This document shows positions 2,754 through 24,541 of a stretch of 64,000 nucleotides of DNA, in pieces. Within the stretch, counting starts at the first letter, position 1; each line of letters begins with the position of its first letter. The stretch spans positions 124,001-188,000 of the forward strand of contig NZ_JALGQE010000005.1 of NCBI RefSeq assembly GCF_022810405.1, written 5' to 3'. The notes beneath the pieces were generated by a model. The model saw only the letters and a list, made by a program, of their open reading frames with translations, searched no databases and had not been told where the DNA came from. The translations under genes were made by a program, and so were the position numbers. This DNA is from Rhodococcus sp. ARC_M5. Lineage in GTDB: Bacteria; Actinomycetota; Actinomycetes; Mycobacteriales; Mycobacteriaceae.

Positions 2754-3644
2754 TTGAGCAGCAACGCGGTTCGTACGACGGTCGTCAACGAGGGAATCCG
2801 ATTGGCGGTGTTCGAGAGCGGTAACCCCGACGGGGACCCGATCGTCCTCGTTCATGGGTGGCCCGATACCCATGAGCTGTGGAGCCACATCGTGCCGCAA
2901 CTCGAAGACCGTTTTCGGGTGATCAGCTACGACTCGCGTGGAGCCGGCGAGAGCACGGTCCCCACTGAGCAATCCGCGTACAAGCTGGCGCGGCTGGCCT
3001 CGGATTTCTACGCCGTTGCCGACGCCGTCAGCCCCGACGCCCCGGTGCACGTGCTCGCCCACGACTGGGGTGCCGTGGAGGTATGGGAGGCCGCAGCCCA
3101 GCCCCCGGCGAAGGATCGAATCCGCTCGTACACATCGATTTCCGGTCCGAACCTCGATCACCTCGGCAAATGGTCGCAGTCGCGGCTGCGCAAACCCACC
3201 CTCACCGGTATCAAGCAGGTTCTCGCCCAGACGCGAGCGTCCTGGTACACCGTCACCTTCCACATCCCCGGGCTCTCCACGCTGCGGATCAAGCGCCAGT
3301 TCGCCAAGGGCTGGCCGGCATTCCTCGAAGAGTTCTCGGGAGTCGATCCGAAGCTCGTCACCCAGAACCCCACGCTGTGGTCGGACGCCACCAACGGCAC
3401 CAAGCTGTACCGCGCCAACATCATTCCGCTGCTGACCAATCCGCGGGATCGATACATCGACATCCCGGTGCATCTCATCGTCAACACCGATGACGTCGCG
3501 GTGCGGCCGTACCACTACGACGACACCGGCAAGTGGGTGAAGAACCTGACGCGCAACGACATTCCGGCCGGACACTGGTCGCCGATCTCCCATGCAGACG
3601 ACATTGCCCGATTGACGACGGAATTCATCGACTCGCTGGACTGA
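2754..3644 (+). CDS. Alpha/beta fold hydrolase (epoxide hydrolase-like)
   Basis: A 296 aa alpha/beta hydrolase. Family marks are HGWPD near residue 30 (oxyanion-hole region), HDWG near residue 107 where the nucleophile Asp of epoxide hydrolases and dehalogenases sits, and a late AGHWSP carrying the catalytic His. The start is read as TTG at 2754, 12 bases after the reductase stop, with a weak purine-rich leader. It is the third gene of the diiron/reductase operon, so it may process the oxygenated product. The substrate cannot be told from sequence. Its 3' end lies only nine bases from the convergent LLM gene, with no hairpin between them. Confidence 0.8.
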   Translation: MSSNAVRTTVVNEGIRLAVFESGNPDGDPIVLVHGWPDTHELWSHIVPQLEDRFRVISYDSRGAGESTVPTEQSAYKLARLASDFYAVADAVSPDAPVHVLAHDWGAVEVWEAAAQPPAKDRIRSYTSISGPNLDHLGKWSQSRLRKPTLTGIKQVLAQTRASWYTVTFHIPGLSTLRIKRQFAKGWPAFLEEFSGVDPKLVTQNPTLWSDATNGTKLYRANIIPLLTNPRDRYIDIPVHLIVNTDDVAVRPYHYDDTGKWVKNLTRNDIPAGHWSPISHADDIARLTTEFIDSLD

Positions 3645-3653
3645 ACCTTCAGG

Positions 3654-4922
3654 TCAACCGGTCAAATGCCCGCGCAGCGTCGACGACGTGTATTCGGATC
3701 GAAAGAGGCCGCGTTGCTGCAGGATCGGAACCACATGGTCCACAAAATCCTCCAGTGAGTCCGGGTACCTTGGGCACATCAAGTTGAATCCGTCGGCACC
3801 GCGGCCGATCCACGACTGCATCTCGTCGGCGATGGACTCCGGCGTGCCGATCATGGTGGCGTGCCCACCGCCGGCTGCGAGAGTGCCGAGCAGTTCCCGC
3901 ACGGTGGGGGCATCCTTCTCCACGATGCGCAGGATCGTCTCGTAGCGACCCTGCGGTCCGGTGAACTCTGCTGCGGGTGGCAGGGACGGTACCGGAGCAT
4001 CGAGTTCCCAAGCAGCGCAGTTCTGTCCGGTGAAGGTGGACAGCATCGCCAGCGACTGTTCGGTGGGCAGCAGCTCGTCCAGTTCGGCCTTCTTGCGGCG
4101 GGCCTCGTACATCGTCGAGCCGATGTACGTCACCAGTCCCGGCATGATGCCCACTGTCGCACTGTCGCGACCAGCCCTGTCGATGCGAGACGTCACATCC
4201 TCGTAATAGCTCTGCGCGGCAACGAGATCGTAGGCGACGGCGTAGATCGCCTCGGCGTACTTCGCCGCGAGATCACGCCCCGGTCCCGACGCACCGGCCT
4301 GGAACAGAACCGGCCTGCCCTGCGGCGAACGCGGTACCGTCAGCGGGCCGTCGACTCGAAAGTGCTTGCCGTCGTGATCGATCGAGTGCACCTTGGCCGG
4401 ATCGGCGTACATCCCCGTTCGATCGAGCGTCAACGCGTCGGCATCCCACGAATCCCACAGCGCCAGTGCAGTATCGACGAACTCCTCGGCGCGCGCATAG
4501 CGCTCCTCGCGACCGGGAATGACGTCCATTCCGTGATTACGCGCCTCGGCGTCGAACATGGAGGTGACGACGTTCCAGCCGGCACGGCCGCCGCTGATGT
4601 GATCGAGCGACGCCAACATGCGTGCAGCGTGGAACGGGGTGTAGAACGTCGACGACACCGTGGTGACGAGACCGATGTGCGTGGTCGCTCTGGCCATGGC
4701 CGACAGCGCGGTGATCGGCTCGAGAAACCAGGTTCCGGCTCCGGCCGGATCCCGCACCGAATGTCCGTCGGCGAAGAACACCGCGTCGAACTTTCCGCGT
4801 TCGGCGAGTTGCGCGAGTTCCTCGTAGTACGAGATATCGCCCAGGTCCTCCACTCGCGAATCGGGATGACGCCACGCCGCACTGTGGTGGCCGCAGCCGT
4901 ACAGAAACGCGTTGAGGTGCAT
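3654..4922 (-). CDS. NtaA/SnaA/DszA-family FMN-dependent monooxygenase
   Basis: A 422 aa luciferase-like flavin monooxygenase of the branch containing nitrilotriacetate monooxygenase, DszA and SnaA. Marks include AAWRHP near the start, AERGKFDAVFFAD, GGRAGWNVVTS, ERYARAEEF and SPQGRPVLFQAGAS, all in the usual order and at the usual length. These enzymes use reduced FMN from a separate reductase to oxidise amines or sulfur compounds, often cleaving C-N or C-S bonds. It is the second gene of an operon whose leader is a TPP riboswitch, one base after the SDR stop. No flavin reductase gene adjoins it. A role on a thiamin-related molecule is suggested by regulation only; the substrate is unknown. 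Confidence 0.85.
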   Translation of the reverse strand: MHLNAFLYGCGHHSAAWRHPDSRVEDLGDISYYEELAQLAERGKFDAVFFADGHSVRDPAGAGTWFLEPITALSAMARATTHIGLVTTVSSTFYTPFHAARMLASLDHISGGRAGWNVVTSMFDAEARNHGMDVIPGREERYARAEEFVDTALALWDSWDADALTLDRTGMYADPAKVHSIDHDGKHFRVDGPLTVPRSPQGRPVLFQAGASGPGRDLAAKYAEAIYAVAYDLVAAQSYYEDVTSRIDRAGRDSATVGIMPGLVTYIGSTMYEARRKKAELDELLPTEQSLAMLSTFTGQNCAAWELDAPVPSLPPAAEFTGPQGRYETILRIVEKDAPTVRELLGTLAAGGGHATMIGTPESIADEMQSWIGRGADGFNLMCPRYPDSLEDFVDHVVPILQQRGLFRSEYTSSTLRGHLTG

Positions 4923-4923
4923 G

Positions 4924-5685
4924 TCAGTCCTTGACCAGGCCGCCGTCGACGACGAGATTCTGGCCGGTCACCGAGCGCGCCCACGGCGAGGCGAAGAACA
5001 ACAAGGCATCGGCGAATTCCTCGGGGGTGGTGACGCGTTGCAACGGGGTCGAGGCGGCAATGAAGTCGAACACCTCGGCCGGGGTGGCGGCACTGGCGTC
5101 GGTGGTGCGGAGCAGTCCACCCGAGACCATGTTGACGGTGATGTTGTCCGCTCCCAGATCGGCGGCGAGGGTGCGGGTCAGTGAGAGCAGGGCCGCCTTG
5201 GAGGCGGTGTAGTCGTGGTACGGCACCACTGGATTCTGGAACAAGTTGGTGCCCACGTTGATGATTCGCCCGAAGCCCGCCTCACGCATACCCGGCAGTG
5301 CGGCCTGAGTGGTGAGCAACGCTGCGCGGACGCTGCCACGCAACTGCGCGTCGAAACGCTCCCAGGTGATGGTGTCGGCCTTGGGTCGGGCATCTCCGTC
5401 GAAGGAGAAGTCGGCCAGTGCGTTGTTGACGACCGTGGTGATCGGGGTGCCGAAGTGCGCACGGGCCGAGTCGAACACCGTGGCCACGGCGCTTTCGTCG
5501 GTCACGTCGCCCTGAACCGCAAAAGCCTGTCCACCAAGTCGGTCCGCCAGCGCTTCGGCAGCATCTTTGCTGTTCCGGTAATCGATCACCACGCGGGCAC
5601 CCTGACCGGCGAACGCCGCGGCGATCGATGCTCCCAGCCCGCGTCCACCGCCGGTGACCAACACTGTCTGCTCGTCGAGTCTCAT
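4924..5685 (-). CDS. SDR-family oxidoreductase under TPP riboswitch
   Basis: A 253 aa classical short-chain dehydrogenase, of the kind usually annotated as 3-oxoacyl-ACP reductase. It has the Rossmann motif TGGGRGLG near residue 12, the NNA-type motif, and a catalytic YTASK. It is the first gene after the TPP riboswitch at 5747-5822. The sequence just before its ATG has GAGAGG, which can pair with CCTC a few bases upstream, so translation could be gated by RNA folding. The downstream LLM monooxygenase is one base away. SDRs under THI-box control have been predicted before, as I recall, but I cannot name the substrate. A thiamin-precursor or thiamin-analogue reaction is a plausible inference. 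Confidence 0.85.
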   Translation of the reverse strand: MRLDEQTVLVTGGGRGLGASIAAAFAGQGARVVIDYRNSKDAAEALADRLGGQAFAVQGDVTDESAVATVFDSARAHFGTPITTVVNNALADFSFDGDARPKADTITWERFDAQLRGSVRAALLTTQAALPGMREAGFGRIINVGTNLFQNPVVPYHDYTASKAALLSLTRTLAADLGADNITVNMVSGGLLRTTDASAATPAEVFDFIAASTPLQRVTTPEEFADALLFFASPWARSVTGQNLVVDGGLVKD

Positions 5686-5746
5686 GCGCTCCGCCTCTCG
5701 TTCGAGGTCAGGGCCGTCGCGAGGGACAGGGAATACCGAAACGTCA

Positions 5747-5822
5747 CGACATTCCCTTCGCTGGTCCTAACCAGATCAGGTTCGACGGGTGTGATCTCAG
5801 CCCTGACGGGCACCCCGTGTCG
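5747..5822 (-). promoter_or_regulatory. TPP (THI-box) riboswitch
   Basis: Read on the minus strand, the element has all conserved blocks of the TPP riboswitch: P1 CGACA/TGTCG closing the ends, GGGGTGCCC, GGCTGAGA (the pyrimidine-sensing T-loop), then CCTGATCTGG, ACCAGCG and AAGGGAA in order and at normal spacing. It starts at 5822 and ends 62 bases before the SDR start codon. A short hairpin over the GAGAGG ribosome-binding site follows, so translational control is more likely than termination; no U-run terminator is visible. Downstream genes are an SDR and a flavin monooxygenase, not known thiamin biosynthesis genes. Confidence 0.95.
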
Positions 5823-5900
5823 CGGTCGACTGTACCTGTAGGTCTCTCTACTGCTTTCTTGCGCTCGACGTAGACAGCCGAACACAACCGTATGCAGCGA

Positions 5901-7196
5901 TCAGCCGATGACAGCCCAGCCGTGCGGAGGAACGCTTACTCGTCCGTCGTGCAGGTGCGCCTCACCGGCCAGTACTTCGCTGCCCTGGACCGGGTAGTCG
6001 ATGGCCTCGTCGCCGAGGTTGAGCGCCACCGTCATCGAACTGCCGTCCGCCTGGACGCGGTAGAGCAGCGCAGTGTTGGTGAGCTCGAGCGTCTCGGTGC
6101 GCGCGGAGTACAACCACGGGTTCCGACGCCGCAGACCGATGAGCTCCTGGTGCACTCGAAACACGGGCCAGCCGTACGGGGCGAGATCCTCGGACGTGTC
6201 GGGGTATTCGGGACGGACCTCGTCGTCGCCGCCGACCCGATCTTCCTTGATGCCGCGGAAGGCCTGCTCGTCGCCGTAGTAGATCATCGGCATACCGCCC
6301 ACGGTGAACAGAACCACCAACGCGTGCAGCAGATGTCGCTCGTCCTCGATGACGCTGGCGATGCGATTGACGTCATGGTTGCCGACGAACGTGGCGGGTA
6401 CGAAGGCGTCGAGCCACCCGTTGTGACGCTCCAGCGCGTGCGAGAGTTCGAAGAAGTTCTTCTCGCTCAGCCCACTCCAGATCGCCTTCCACAGTTCGTA
6501 CTGGGTGACCGAGTCCAGCGTGGAGGCCGAGACGATTCGGTCGTAGTCGCCGTGAATGACTTCGCCGAGAAAGTATGCGTCCGGGTGCTTTTCGCGAACC
6601 TTCGGCAGTACCGCCGACCAGAAACGTGGTGGCACCGCGTAGGCCGCGTCGAGCCGCCACGCGTCGACGCCACGGTCCAGCCAGTGCGAGAGCACGTCCA
6701 CGACATACTGCTGCACGTGGGGACTTTCGTGGTTGAGTGCCACCAGTTCGTCGTGGCCCTCGAAGTTGCGATGCGTCGGCTCGTCGCCGGACCAGTCGAG
6801 GTGGAACCACCCCGCGGTCTCGGAGTCCGGACCCTCGGCCAGAGCCTCACTGAACTTCAGAAAGCTCTGCGCCACATGGTTGAAGACGCCGTCGAACATG
6901 ACCTTCAGGCCGCGCGAATGCGCAGCGGCGATCAGGGAGTCGATGTCCTCGTCCGTACCCAGCCTGCCGTCGACGTGGTAGTAGTCGACGGTGTCGTAGC
7001 CGTGCTTCTCGGATTCGAAGATCGGACCGAGGGCGATGCCCGACGCGCCGAGTTCGAGGGCGTAGTCGAGCCACTTCTCGATTCTGTTCAGCCGATGCAG
7101 ATCCGCTTGCGACTCACCGTCCCACCCGTGCACCGGAGCGCCGGTGAAGCCGAGCGGGTACAGGTGCCACCAGATGGCGTGCTTCGTCCACTCCAT
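5901..7196 (-). CDS. GH13 alpha-amylase family glycosidase
   Basis: A 431 aa cytoplasmic GH13 enzyme with no signal peptide. The four family regions are present: DGVFNH (102-107), WRLDAA with nucleophile D183, FLGEVI with acid/base E212, and VGNHDVNR with H274-D275. It is compact compared with trehalose synthases and resembles small actinobacterial amylase-like proteins; the exact sugar is unknown. Its ATG overlaps the stop of the upstream FMN oxidase by one base (TGATG), so the two are translationally coupled. The minus-strand frame is open far upstream through 9152, but that extension runs through two other genes and is not coding. Confidence 0.85.
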   Translation of the reverse strand: MEWTKHAIWWHLYPLGFTGAPVHGWDGESQADLHRLNRIEKWLDYALELGASGIALGPIFESEKHGYDTVDYYHVDGRLGTDEDIDSLIAAAHSRGLKVMFDGVFNHVAQSFLKFSEALAEGPDSETAGWFHLDWSGDEPTHRNFEGHDELVALNHESPHVQQYVVDVLSHWLDRGVDAWRLDAAYAVPPRFWSAVLPKVREKHPDAYFLGEVIHGDYDRIVSASTLDSVTQYELWKAIWSGLSEKNFFELSHALERHNGWLDAFVPATFVGNHDVNRIASVIEDERHLLHALVVLFTVGGMPMIYYGDEQAFRGIKEDRVGGDDEVRPEYPDTSEDLAPYGWPVFRVHQELIGLRRRNPWLYSARTETLELTNTALLYRVQADGSSMTVALNLGDEAIDYPVQGSEVLAGEAHLHDGRVSVPPHGWAVIG

Positions 7197-8374
7197 CAGG
7201 ACGCCTCGATCGAGTCGCGGCCGAGCTCGCCCGCACCGGTATGGCCGGAGAGGCTGGTCACCAAGTCGAATTCGGCCAGCAGGCAACGTAATACGTGTGC
7301 AACGCCCTCCTGACCGCCGAGCGCGAGGCCGTAGAGGAACGGTCGGCCGAGGAGAACCGCATCGGCCCCGAGCGCAAGCGCCTTGGCCATGTCGGCACCG
7401 GTACGCACACCGGAGTCGAACAGGATGGTCAGTTCGTCGCCCACAGCCTCGACGATGGACGGCAATGCGTCGAGTGATGCTCTGGCCCCGTCGATCTGAC
7501 GACCGCCGTGGTTCGAGACCACGATGCCGTCGACCCCGTGCGCGGCAGCCTCTCGGGCGTCGCCGACGGTGCAGATGCCCTTGAGCACGATCGGGCCGTC
7601 CCAGTGCTCGCGCAGGAACGCCAGATTTTTCCACGACAGCCCCGGATTGGGGAACATCTGCGCCCAATGCATCGCGGCGGCAACGGGATTCTCCTCGACC
7701 GGCTGAGCGAGTCCTGCTTGGAACGCCGGATCGGTCAGGTAGTTCTCGATGCCGAGGTTGGCCAGGAACGGAAGGTAACCACGGTCGAGATCGGCCGGCC
7801 GCCAGCCCAGCAACGTCGTGTCGAGCGTCAGCACCAGCGCGGTGAATCCGGAATCCTTCGCGCGCTGCAGGAAGCTCAGCAACACCGACTCGTCCGTCGG
7901 CCAGTACAGCTGGTACCAGCGGGGAGCGTCGCCACCTGCCTCGGCGATCTGCTCGAACGAATGCGATGCCTGCGTCGAATGTATGTACGGCACACCGAGT
8001 TCCGCAGCCGCACGAACCGTCGCGAGCTCGCCCTCGGGATGGGCGAGTGTCTGGATCCCGACGGGCGCGATCAGCAGCGGAGCAGGCATCTCGGTGCCGA
8101 GCACGGTGCACGCGTGAGTGCGGGCCGCCGAACTGCGGAGCATCCGCGGCGTGATGGCCCACCTGTCGAAGGCGGCCCGGTTGGCCCGCGCCGTCGAGCC
8201 GCTGCCCGCACTGGCGACGATGTAGCCCAGTGCCTCGGGCGAAAGCTTCTCGGCGGCTTGATCCTCCAGCCGCGCCAGGTTTGTGGTGATCGGCGGTGTC
8301 TGCTGGGCGAACATCCCGGCGGCGTAGATGCCGAGTTGGTGATCGCTGAAGTTGCTGGGCCTGGCCTCGGTCAT
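7196..8374 (-). CDS. FMN-dependent alpha-hydroxy acid oxidase (lactate 2-monooxygenase-like)
   Basis: A 392 aa FMN enzyme close in length to mycobacterial lactate 2-monooxygenase. Such enzymes oxidise L-lactate or related 2-hydroxyacids, either with decarboxylation (monooxygenase) or to the keto acid (oxidase). Key residues are visible: K265 in VLKG, catalytic H289 and R292 in SNHGGRQIDGA, and the phosphate-binding FDSGVRTG and LGRPF segments. It is the middle gene of a minus-strand trio with a glutamine amidotransferase upstream (9-base gap) and GH13 downstream (1-base overlap). Whether it is oxidase or monooxygenase cannot be settled from sequence. Confidence 0.85.
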   Translation of the reverse strand: MTEARPSNFSDHQLGIYAAGMFAQQTPPITTNLARLEDQAAEKLSPEALGYIVASAGSGSTARANRAAFDRWAITPRMLRSSAARTHACTVLGTEMPAPLLIAPVGIQTLAHPEGELATVRAAAELGVPYIHSTQASHSFEQIAEAGGDAPRWYQLYWPTDESVLLSFLQRAKDSGFTALVLTLDTTLLGWRPADLDRGYLPFLANLGIENYLTDPAFQAGLAQPVEENPVAAAMHWAQMFPNPGLSWKNLAFLREHWDGPIVLKGICTVGDAREAAAHGVDGIVVSNHGGRQIDGARASLDALPSIVEAVGDELTILFDSGVRTGADMAKALALGADAVLLGRPFLYGLALGGQEGVAHVLRCLLAEFDLVTSLSGHTGAGELGRDSIEAS

Positions 8375-8383
8375 CGTTCGACC

Positions 8384-9097
8384 CTACCGGGGCACCGCCG
8401 CGGATCGGGCGAGAAATGCGTCGAGCAGGGCCGAGCAACGCGCCCGAGCTGCAGGTTCGGCGTCTGCGATGGCTCGGCGTATCTCGTGCACGTCCACCGC
8501 ATGTTCGACGCCGTCGCGGTCCCACGCGGCGGCCCACGCATCGTAGGTATCGAGGTCGATCTCGGGGTGGAACTGCAACCCGAGGTGCGGTCCGAGGACG
8601 AAGGCCTGTTGCGCCGCCGCGTTGCGGGCGACCACCGTGGCCTCCGGCGGAGCGGTGAACGTGTCGACGTGGAATTCCATCCACGGGCCCGCCGCGACGA
8701 GCTCGGGATCGGAGGTCTCGACGTCGACAAATCCGTACTCGGGGTGCTCGGACTTGCGTACCGATCCGCCGAGTACCCGCGCGAGCAATTGGCCGCCGAA
8801 GCACACGCCCAGAACCGGGACCTGCGCATCGATCGCATGCTGCACGTACGCGATCTCCGGCGCGAGCCACGTCAGCGTGTCGTCGTACGCGGCGTCGGGT
8901 GAGCCCATGACCACTACCAACTGCGCGTCGGACAGTCGCGGCGGTGCGACATCGGGGCTGTGATCGAAGGAATGCACGTCCAACTGAAAACCCCTGGTGC
9001 GCAATTCGGCGTCGAGGGTTCCGATGTCGCGTCGCGCGAGAGCCGGGTCCTGATCGTGGACGAGTACTACGGCGCGCGGGTCGTTCGTGTCTGTCAC
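8384..9097 (-). CDS. Class I glutamine amidotransferase
   Basis: A 237 aa stand-alone type-1 amidotransferase domain of the GMP synthase-like kind. The nucleophile C99 lies in GVCFGGQ and the H176/E178 pair in QFHPE, completing the Cys-His-Glu triad. These proteins hydrolyse glutamine, or sometimes gamma-glutamyl conjugates, and may hand ammonia to a partner. No synthase partner adjoins it. It heads the trio with the FMN oxidase and GH13 gene, and is divergent from the helicase at 9146 across 48 bases. The C-terminal part is Asp/Ala-rich and less conserved. Its acceptor is unknown. Confidence 0.85.
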   Translation of the reverse strand: MTDTNDPRAVVLVHDQDPALARRDIGTLDAELRTRGFQLDVHSFDHSPDVAPPRLSDAQLVVVMGSPDAAYDDTLTWLAPEIAYVQHAIDAQVPVLGVCFGGQLLARVLGGSVRKSEHPEYGFVDVETSDPELVAAGPWMEFHVDTFTAPPEATVVARNAAAQQAFVLGPHLGLQFHPEIDLDTYDAWAAAWDRDGVEHAVDVHEIRRAIADAEPAARARCSALLDAFLARSAAVPR

Positions 9098-23563: not shown

Positions 23564-24541
23564 GTGACTATTCGCCTCGGTTACCAGATGCCCAACTTCA
23601 GCTACGACGGTTCGGTCGCAGAACTCTTTCCCCAGGTCATCGCGCAGGCGCGCGAGGCCGAAGCGGCCGGTTTCGACACCGCATTCGTGATGGATCACTT
23701 CTACCAACTCCCCGGAATCGGTAAGCCCGACGAGCCGATGCTCGAGGCCTACTCCGCGCTGTCCGCGCTCGCGACGGCCACCGACACCATCCAGCTCTCC
23801 GCGCTGGTCACCGGCAACACTTACCGCAATCCGGCGATCCTGGCCAAGACCGTCACCACGCTGGACGTCGTGAGCGGCGGTCGCGCGATCCTCGGGATCG
23901 GAGCCGGCTGGTACGAACTCGAACACCAGAGCTTCGGACTCGAGTTCGGTACCTTCACCGACCGTTTCGAGCGACTCGACGAGGCTCTGCAGATCATCGA
24001 GCCGATGCTCCGCGGCCAGCGCCCGACGTTCGACGGCCTCTGGTACCAGGTCGAGAACGCGATGAACGAGCCGCGTATCCGCGATGATCTGCCGATCATG
24101 CTCGGTGGTGGCGGCGAGAAGAAGACGTTCGGCCTGGCCGCTCAATTCGCGGATCATCTCAACATCATCTGCGACGCCAACGAACTGCCGCGCAAGATGG
24201 CTGCCGTGCAGGCCCGATGCGAGGAGGTCGACCGCGACCCCAAGGACCTCGAAACGAGCTTCCTCGCCTTCGTCATCGTCGACGAGGACGGCGACAAGGC
24301 CAAGGAGTTACAGCGCGAGTTCGTACTGAAGCAGGGCCTCGATCTGACGAACCTGTCGGAAGAGGACGCGGCGAAGGCCACCGATCGCCACTTCTGCGGA
24401 ACCCCCGACGACGTCGCCGAGCAGGTGCAGAAGCGCGTCCTCGATCAGGGCGTCGACGGCATCATCATCAACCTGATCACCAACGGACACCAGCCGGGAG
24501 CCGTCGAACTGGCTGGTAAGGCCCTGAAGCCGCTCGTCTAG
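23564..24541 (+). CDS. LLM-class F420-dependent oxidoreductase
   Basis: A 325 aa luciferase-like TIM-barrel protein of the type named F420-dependent in actinobacteria. Marks are AREAEAAGFDTAFVMDHF, VTGNTYRNPAILAKTVTTLDVVSGGRAI split over the barrel core, and GIGAGWYELEH. The GTG at 23564 (or the one three codons before) starts the protein. Cofactor F420 use is inferred from family and organism; the substrate is unknown. It is unrelated to the NtaA-type enzyme at 3654. Three AIM24 genes follow in the same direction after a 52-base gap. Confidence 0.82.
   Translation: MTIRLGYQMPNFSYDGSVAELFPQVIAQAREAEAAGFDTAFVMDHFYQLPGIGKPDEPMLEAYSALSALATATDTIQLSALVTGNTYRNPAILAKTVTTLDVVSGGRAILGIGAGWYELEHQSFGLEFGTFTDRFERLDEALQIIEPMLRGQRPTFDGLWYQVENAMNEPRIRDDLPIMLGGGGEKKTFGLAAQFADHLNIICDANELPRKMAAVQARCEEVDRDPKDLETSFLAFVIVDEDGDKAKELQREFVLKQGLDLTNLSEEDAAKATDRHFCGTPDDVAEQVQKRVLDQGVDGIIINLITNGHQPGAVELAGKALKPLV

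Follow-up and report, generated by a model that had tools for sequence, protein, structure and literature searches.

A 64,000-nucleotide stretch of the genome of Rhodococcus sp. ARC_M5 (the window) carries a thiamin pyrophosphate (TPP) riboswitch aptamer and, behind it on the minus strand, a two-gene operon that encodes a short-chain dehydrogenase/reductase (SDR) and a luciferase-like flavin monooxygenase (LLM). The recurrence of this order in relatives and the thiamin genes of their genomes suggest that the pair probably serves salvage of the pyrimidine half of thiamin, by as yet undescribed chemistry, in cells that cannot make this half.

The riboswitch and its operon

The full window was searched with cmscan against all Rfam 15 families at gathering thresholds, and the TPP riboswitch family RF00059 was the sole match. 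A preliminary description of this DNA, made from its letters alone, had read a TPP aptamer at 5747-5822 of the minus strand. The covariance scan bore this out, as that span is the core of an RF00059 match at 5735-5827 (minus strand), which covers the full model (1-105) and scores 70.2 bits against a gathering threshold of 54.3 (E 9e-12). It is also the top-scoring of the three TPP matches in the 5.4-Mb genome; the other two have 62.6 bits and 48.8 bits, of which the latter does not reach the threshold. A chance aptamer was ruled out by the RF00059 score, by this genome-wide ranking and by the recurrence of the aptamer upstream of the SDR gene in relatives.

The aptamer lies 5' of the SDR gene on the same strand, separated from it by a 49-base leader (5686-5734, minus strand) in which an AG-rich ribosome-binding stretch can be read at about 5689-5698. 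No expression platform emerged from thermodynamic folding of the leader (z -0.21); the ribosome site was mostly paired, with a mean unpaired value of 0.25 in the free fold versus 0.21 with the aptamer forced. No terminator-like site was found between 3500 and 6100, and no sigma-70-like match that could serve as the riboswitch's own promoter was seen. Expression of the operon would presumably be under thiamin control. In its full-length aptamer above the curated score, placed upstream of an operon on the same strand, the locus resembles the known TPP riboswitch or THI element. It differs in that the regulated genes lie outside the usual thi genes and transporters.

The first gene (4924-5685, minus strand) encodes an SDR oxidoreductase of 253 residues of the PRK08642 family (NF006393/PRK08642 '3-oxoacyl-ACP reductase', 439.9 bits, cut-off 292), with the TGxxxGxG and YTASK motifs that mark SDRs. 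The name 3-oxoacyl-acyl carrier protein (ACP) reductase is an annotation name for the SDR, and its context argues against that activity here. One base separates its stop codon from the start of the second gene (3654-4922, minus strand), which encodes an LLM of 422 residues of the NtaA/DmoA family (TIGR03860, 533.2 bits, cut-off 279.7, residues 3-419). The best solved relative of the LLM is Bacillus subtilis YtnJ/MoxC (E 6e-93); nitrilotriacetate monooxygenase, DszA and riboflavin lyase also match it over nearly the full length. Enzymes of the NtaA/DmoA class use reduced flavin mononucleotide (FMNH2) and O2. There is no flavin reductase in the two-gene operon, and no wider search for one was made. 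The family score and the near full-length matches thus place the LLM with YtnJ/MoxC, DszA, NtaA, DmoA and riboflavin lyase, whereas its link to TPP aptamers, its separate grouping in a small tree and an operon without a flavin reductase set it apart. In that tree the LLM group is separated by a long stem (support 92/96, just short of the tool's mark of 95) from six of the seven sampled paralogues. The seventh, L144 (G451, Corynebacterium, about 55% identity), falls inside the group, and neither an SDR nor an aptamer core was seen in the stretch available at L144.

Upstream of the aptamer, an alpha-amylase-type gene (5901-7160, minus strand) ends 73 bases before it on the same strand. Downstream, an alpha/beta hydrolase gene (2754-3644, plus strand) is convergent with the operon; it matches only the N-terminal half of the 578-residue model PRK05855 'SDR family oxidoreductase'. 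A second, weak LLM-like stretch lies at 23648-24319 (plus strand; 24% identity, E 7e-9). The preliminary description had also stated that there was no thi gene nearby. For the window this holds: none was found by tblastn with 13 thi, transporter and dehydrogenase queries over the 64 kb (E 1e-5), nor by a Pfam scan of six genes in the interval 2754-9097, which the gene-by-gene annotation covers. For the relatives it does not, as in several of them the pair adjoins thi genes or transporters.

Recurrence of the order in relatives

The SDR relatives surveyed were the best 80 of 197, taken from named genomes. The order aptamer-SDR-LLM was found to recur in Rhodococcus, Corynebacterium, Micrococcales, Nocardiopsis, Halomonadaceae and Alcaligenaceae. 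Among these 80, a highly similar LLM directly follows the SDR in all 23 Rhodococcus loci, in two of the four from Corynebacterium, in most of those from Halomonadaceae, and in Alcaligenes, Arthrobacter, Kocuria, Cryobacterium and Nocardiopsis. The SDR stands without a following LLM in Pandoraea, Paraburkholderia, Pseudoxanthomonas and others.

The whole genomes of 43 loci (32 SDR+LLM, 11 SDR-only) were searched with RF00059, and an aptamer was assigned to an SDR if it was at most 500 bases upstream of it and on its strand; matches were taken to E 0.001, so that a few are below the curated score. An aptamer was present directly upstream of the SDR in 29 of the 32 SDR+LLM loci versus four of the 11 SDR-only loci. 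The preliminary description had named, as evidence against its proposal, a pair that in other genomes is not accompanied by riboswitches or thiamin genes; this result, together with the thi-gene neighbours described below, is the opposite. The three SDR+LLM loci with no mapped aptamer are L039, on a short contig, and L040 and L042, where the aptamer is on the opposite strand, before a symporter gene. The SDR-only loci with an aptamer are L073 and L078 (Halomonadaceae), L063 (with a broken LLM) and L064 (3300-8998), from a Rhodoferax metagenome-assembled genome (MAG), in which the aptamer and a lone SDR are found between ThiC and TenA. As the mapping ignored contig numbers, some other aptamers (e.g., that of L051) may sit on different contigs; for the symporter aptamers that were compared with the search output, the places agree.

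Fourteen of the 23 Rhodococcus loci were searched with RF00059, and the remaining nine by core pattern only, all nine of which have the core. Among further Rhodococcus loci, 10 of 11 reach the curated threshold, the eleventh (L023) being just under it at 52.9 bits. In all 18 further Corynebacterium loci from genomes with an LLM orthologue, the SDR precedes the LLM and an aptamer core precedes the SDR, and these loci also reach the curated threshold (14/14 in one set and the remaining four in a second). All seven further direct SDR-LLM loci of that second set reach it, and in its Micrococcales loci L151, L152 and L153 the match is directly upstream. L114, a second copy in Kocuria, is below the RF00059 threshold, with its core near the end of the available stretch. 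Kocuria rhizophila TA68 (G047) has two SDR-LLM copies (L114 and L117), one with an aptamer core and the other without one within 489 bases. In L127 (G529, Corynebacterium; 4671-6173), a transposase gene lies between SDR and LLM, and the genome keeps ThiC; its three sisters in the LLM tree have an uninterrupted pair, and ThiC is absent from them.

The neighbours of the pair were clustered for 66 loci. A sodium:solute symporter gene is beside the pair in 20 of these, all proteobacterial; the three of the 20 that were scanned scored over the cut-off of PF00474, and the symporter has its own RF00059 match in 16 of 17 loci examined (the exception is L066). No such symporter was found beside the pair in the clustered Rhodococcus loci (L018-L026). 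The likeness to ThiV of SAR11 bacteria, at family level, is that of a PF00474 symporter with its own TPP aptamer. ThiV is described, in the available portion of PMC11452348, as a putative importer of the hydroxymethylpyrimidine (HMP) under a TPP switch, of the sodium:solute symporter family. Elsewhere, the pair adjoins TPP-ThiD-MFS-ThiM-ThiE (L038), a divergent TPP-YkoE-like energy-coupling factor (ECF) transporter set (L028), a convergent TPP-ThiYX (L031) or, in the ThiC-less L082, ThiE and ThiO-ThiG-ThiF. In L150, the order is TPP-ThiM-ThiE-SDR-LLM, with an aptamer of 66.7 bits.

A replacement of the SDR was seen in Micrococcales, where seven of the 248 genomes searched have an LLM orthologue. 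In two of them, G213 (L145) and G138 (L149), a zinc-dependent alcohol dehydrogenase takes the place of the SDR and abuts the LLM, and there is no SDR in the stretch fetched. In L145, the dehydrogenase-LLM pair is downstream of ThiO-ThiS-ThiG-ThiF on one strand. Since the LLMs of L145 and L149 are sisters in the tree (100/100), one replacement rather than two has probably taken place. That two unrelated dehydrogenase folds fill the same slot suggests that the partner enzyme interconverts an alcohol and an aldehyde or ketone.

Thiamin genes of genomes with the pair

ThiC is the bacterial HMP-phosphate synthase. A search found it in 13 of 14 control genomes and in none of the 37 of the window's genus, among which is the genome of the window itself (100% complete). 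The window's genome has ThiG, ThiE, TenA and an NMT1-type ThiY by Pfam. ThiO was assigned by a general DAO match and its position, ThiX and ThiZ by their position in the TenA-ThiYXZ operon, and a ThiS-like small open reading frame was read between thi genes. Of the other two TPP matches, that of 62.6 bits precedes TenA and that of 48.8 bits, below threshold, precedes ThiO. The three TPP operons of this genome are therefore those of thiazole synthesis, of pyrimidine uptake with TenA, and of the SDR-LLM pair.

Corynebacterium, in which ThiC is variably present, was compared across 221 genomes. An LLM orthologue of at least 60% identity is present in 20 of these, each time with the SDR and an aptamer core in front of it; G349, G353 and G451, with LLM matches of 56-57%, were counted in the group without an orthologue. 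ThiC is absent from 12 of the 20 genomes with the orthologue versus 54 of the 201 without (Fisher p 0.0038). Among the ThiC-less genomes, ThiG (E 1e-40) is retained in 11 of 12 that have the pair and in 17 of 54 that do not (p 0.00017). The tree of the 20 LLMs requires at least four changes of ThiC state.

Over a wider set of 24 ThiC-less genomes that carry an LLM orthologue, ThiG was found in 20 (the set comprises the window's genome, 12 Corynebacterium, six Micrococcales, two of which carry the alcohol dehydrogenase instead of the SDR, and five others). It is lacking in none of the 15 ThiC-bearing pair genomes examined for both genes, a figure that leaves out eight ThiC-bearing Corynebacterium pair genomes. 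The tally of both genes also leaves out G043 (ThiC fragment), G065 (broken LLM) and G076 (no LLM). In the first of these, Cryobacterium sp. Y29, ThiC is reduced to fragments (G043:C32:44080-44533; 132 and 28 bits), and the genome has the pair and ThiG. ThiC loss was also considered as a general correlate of the pair; this holds in Corynebacterium but not in Micrococcales, an order in which ThiC is in any case absent from 209 of 248 genomes.

Proposed role and alternative explanations

The preliminary description had proposed an undescribed thiamin-related reaction, such as salvage, trimming of a thiazole or pyrimidine fragment or breakdown of a toxic analogue. The thiamin link was strengthened by the survey, and the pair almost certainly belongs to thiamin metabolism. 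The salvage option can be narrowed to the pyrimidine side by the genomes that have the pair and ThiG and no ThiC, which make pyrimidine salvage more probable than action on the thiazole side or on a toxic analogue. It is likely, on this evidence, that the pair belongs to the pyrimidine branch. The fuller proposal, a TPP-riboswitch operon of this branch that serves salvage by the mechanism set out below, is held with modest confidence.

Enzymes of the NtaA/DmoA class split C-N or C-S bonds by oxidising the carbon; acting on a pyrimidine-CH2-X compound, such an enzyme would leave the 5-aldehyde. Under TPP shortage, the riboswitch would permit expression of the operon. The LLM, with FMNH2 and O2, would oxygenate the bridging carbon of such a compound, and the C-N or C-S bond would be split to give 4-amino-2-methylpyrimidine-5-carbaldehyde. 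Using NAD(P)H, the SDR, or the zinc alcohol dehydrogenase in two genomes, would reduce this aldehyde. The resulting HMP, the substrate of ThiD, would then be joined to the thiazole via ThiD and ThiE. Candidates for X are amines, products of thiaminase exchange or the sulfonate from sulfite splitting of thiamin; sulfite cleavage of thiamin yields a pyrimidine sulfonate. Such a mechanism would account for the interchangeable dehydrogenase, the pyrimidine-type importers and the ThiC-less, ThiG-bearing genomes. This oxidative-reductive chemistry is put forward tentatively. TenA-ThiXYZ is a pathway of aminopyrimidine salvage, and the TPP-TenA-ThiYXZ operon of the same genome would, by present evidence, belong to the same branch. 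However, TenA is hydrolytic, whereas the SDR-LLM pair would be oxidative and then reductive.

Several observations weigh against this proposal. SDRs of 68-77% identity exist without an aptamer or an LLM (seven loci by RF00059, others by core pattern only), and they interleave with the remaining SDRs in the tree; the SDR may therefore be a generalist that was recruited from a general family. No neighbour common to these unregulated homologues across genera was seen in locus clustering. In L064, L073 and L078 an SDR stands behind a TPP aptamer, with no LLM orthologue elsewhere in the genomes (E 1e-100); a lone SDR under an aptamer could take its aldehyde from another source. Of the 37 genomes of the window's genus, all of them ThiC-less, seven have no LLM orthologue, so cells without ThiC can live without the pair. 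ThiG is missing as well as ThiC in four genomes that have the pair (G046, G254, G267 and G460), and G065, an Arthrobacter MAG, is ThiC-less and ThiG-bearing with a broken LLM. Each of the 11 proteobacterial genomes with SDR and LLM that were tested has kept ThiC. Among Micrococcales, the pair is not enriched in genomes that lack ThiC (ThiC absent from six of seven genomes with an LLM orthologue versus 203 of 241 without, p 1.0), and the ThiG comparison group was left out for this order. The association tests are uncorrected for the relatedness of species. For the loci with the alcohol dehydrogenase, the aptamer before ThiO in L145 is just below the cut-off (53.3 bits) and L149 has only a very weak match before the dehydrogenase (33.5 bits, E 0.008). 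Finally, a pyrimidine gap is not rare, as HMP auxotrophy is the commonest thiamin auxotrophy of marine microbes according to the available portion of PMC11452348.

The same genomes bear on the other explanations. The pair could have its substrate on the thiazole side, or it could attack whole thiamin that has been oxidised, as when damaged thiamin is cut so that both halves are reused. Its presence in genomes that lack ThiC and ThiG and keep ThiM, ThiE and ThiD (L038, L150) agrees with this, and C-N cleavage at the bridge would release both halves. However, the transporters beside it resemble ThiV, ThiY and YkoE, types that have been linked to pyrimidines or thiamin, and no ThiC-bearing pair genome out of 15 is without ThiG, a count that also weakens the thiazole branch as a sole role; this explanation is unlikely. 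Alternatively, the pair might make HMP from a central metabolite in an oxygen-dependent, ThiC-independent manner, with no salvage involved. Retention of ThiG in 20 of the 24 ThiC-less genomes with the LLM fits such de novo synthesis, as does the position of the pair beside ThiE and ThiO-ThiG-ThiF in the ThiC-less L082. However, the pair often coexists with ThiC, adjoins pyrimidine-type importers and has its LLM missing from seven ThiC-less genomes of the genus; the building of a pyrimidine ring would also be much to ask of two enzymes of these classes. De novo synthesis is thus considered quite unlikely. Were it true, bacteria without ThiC and with ThiG that are counted as pyrimidine auxotrophs would be prototrophs.

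Two further explanations have less in their favour. Detoxification of a thiamin or HMP antagonist of the bacimethrin, oxythiamin or pyrithiamin type would draw on the broad oxidative chemistry of the LLM class, but the usual sense of a TPP switch, repression by TPP, is ill suited to it, and it leaves the linkage to ThiC-less genomes and to uptake genes unexplained. It is therefore regarded as very unlikely. The last explanation takes the aptamer as real and the two genes as unrelated to thiamin, concerned with general carbonyl reactions and with sulfur or nitrogen oxidation and caught downstream of a riboswitch. The unregulated SDR homologues of 68-77% identity speak for it, but the same gene order turns up beside thi genes in several families and in two phyla, and the survey brings this explanation close to refuted; its remaining probability is slight.

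A THI-element-regulated gene named oarX, 3-oxoacyl-ACP-reductase-like, was reportedly described by Rodionov et al. in 2002. It may be the present SDR; it is not known to have an LLM partner, a ThiC link or a mechanism. In a literature covered partly by titles and the beginnings of abstracts, no report was found of a luciferase-like or NtaA-type monooxygenase linked to a TPP riboswitch, nor was a thiamin need of R. fascians found in the portion of the literature available. In what was available of the main text of a 2013 survey of RNA regulons (PMC3766115), the terms 'monooxygenase', 'dehydrogenase' and 'thiV' do not occur. The TPP regulon is of a known kind; what appears to be new is an undescribed oxidative module within it.

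Thiamin traffic in microbial communities is inferred from lists of genes, namely ThiC, ThiG, TenA and ThiV, in the available portion of PMC10881298. A pair tied to a missing ThiC would add to such lists a further route to the pyrimidine half and a further environmental vitamer, and would correct predictions of auxotrophy. It also raises the question of which compound the ThiC-less rhodococci, corynebacteria and arthrobacters convert to HMP.

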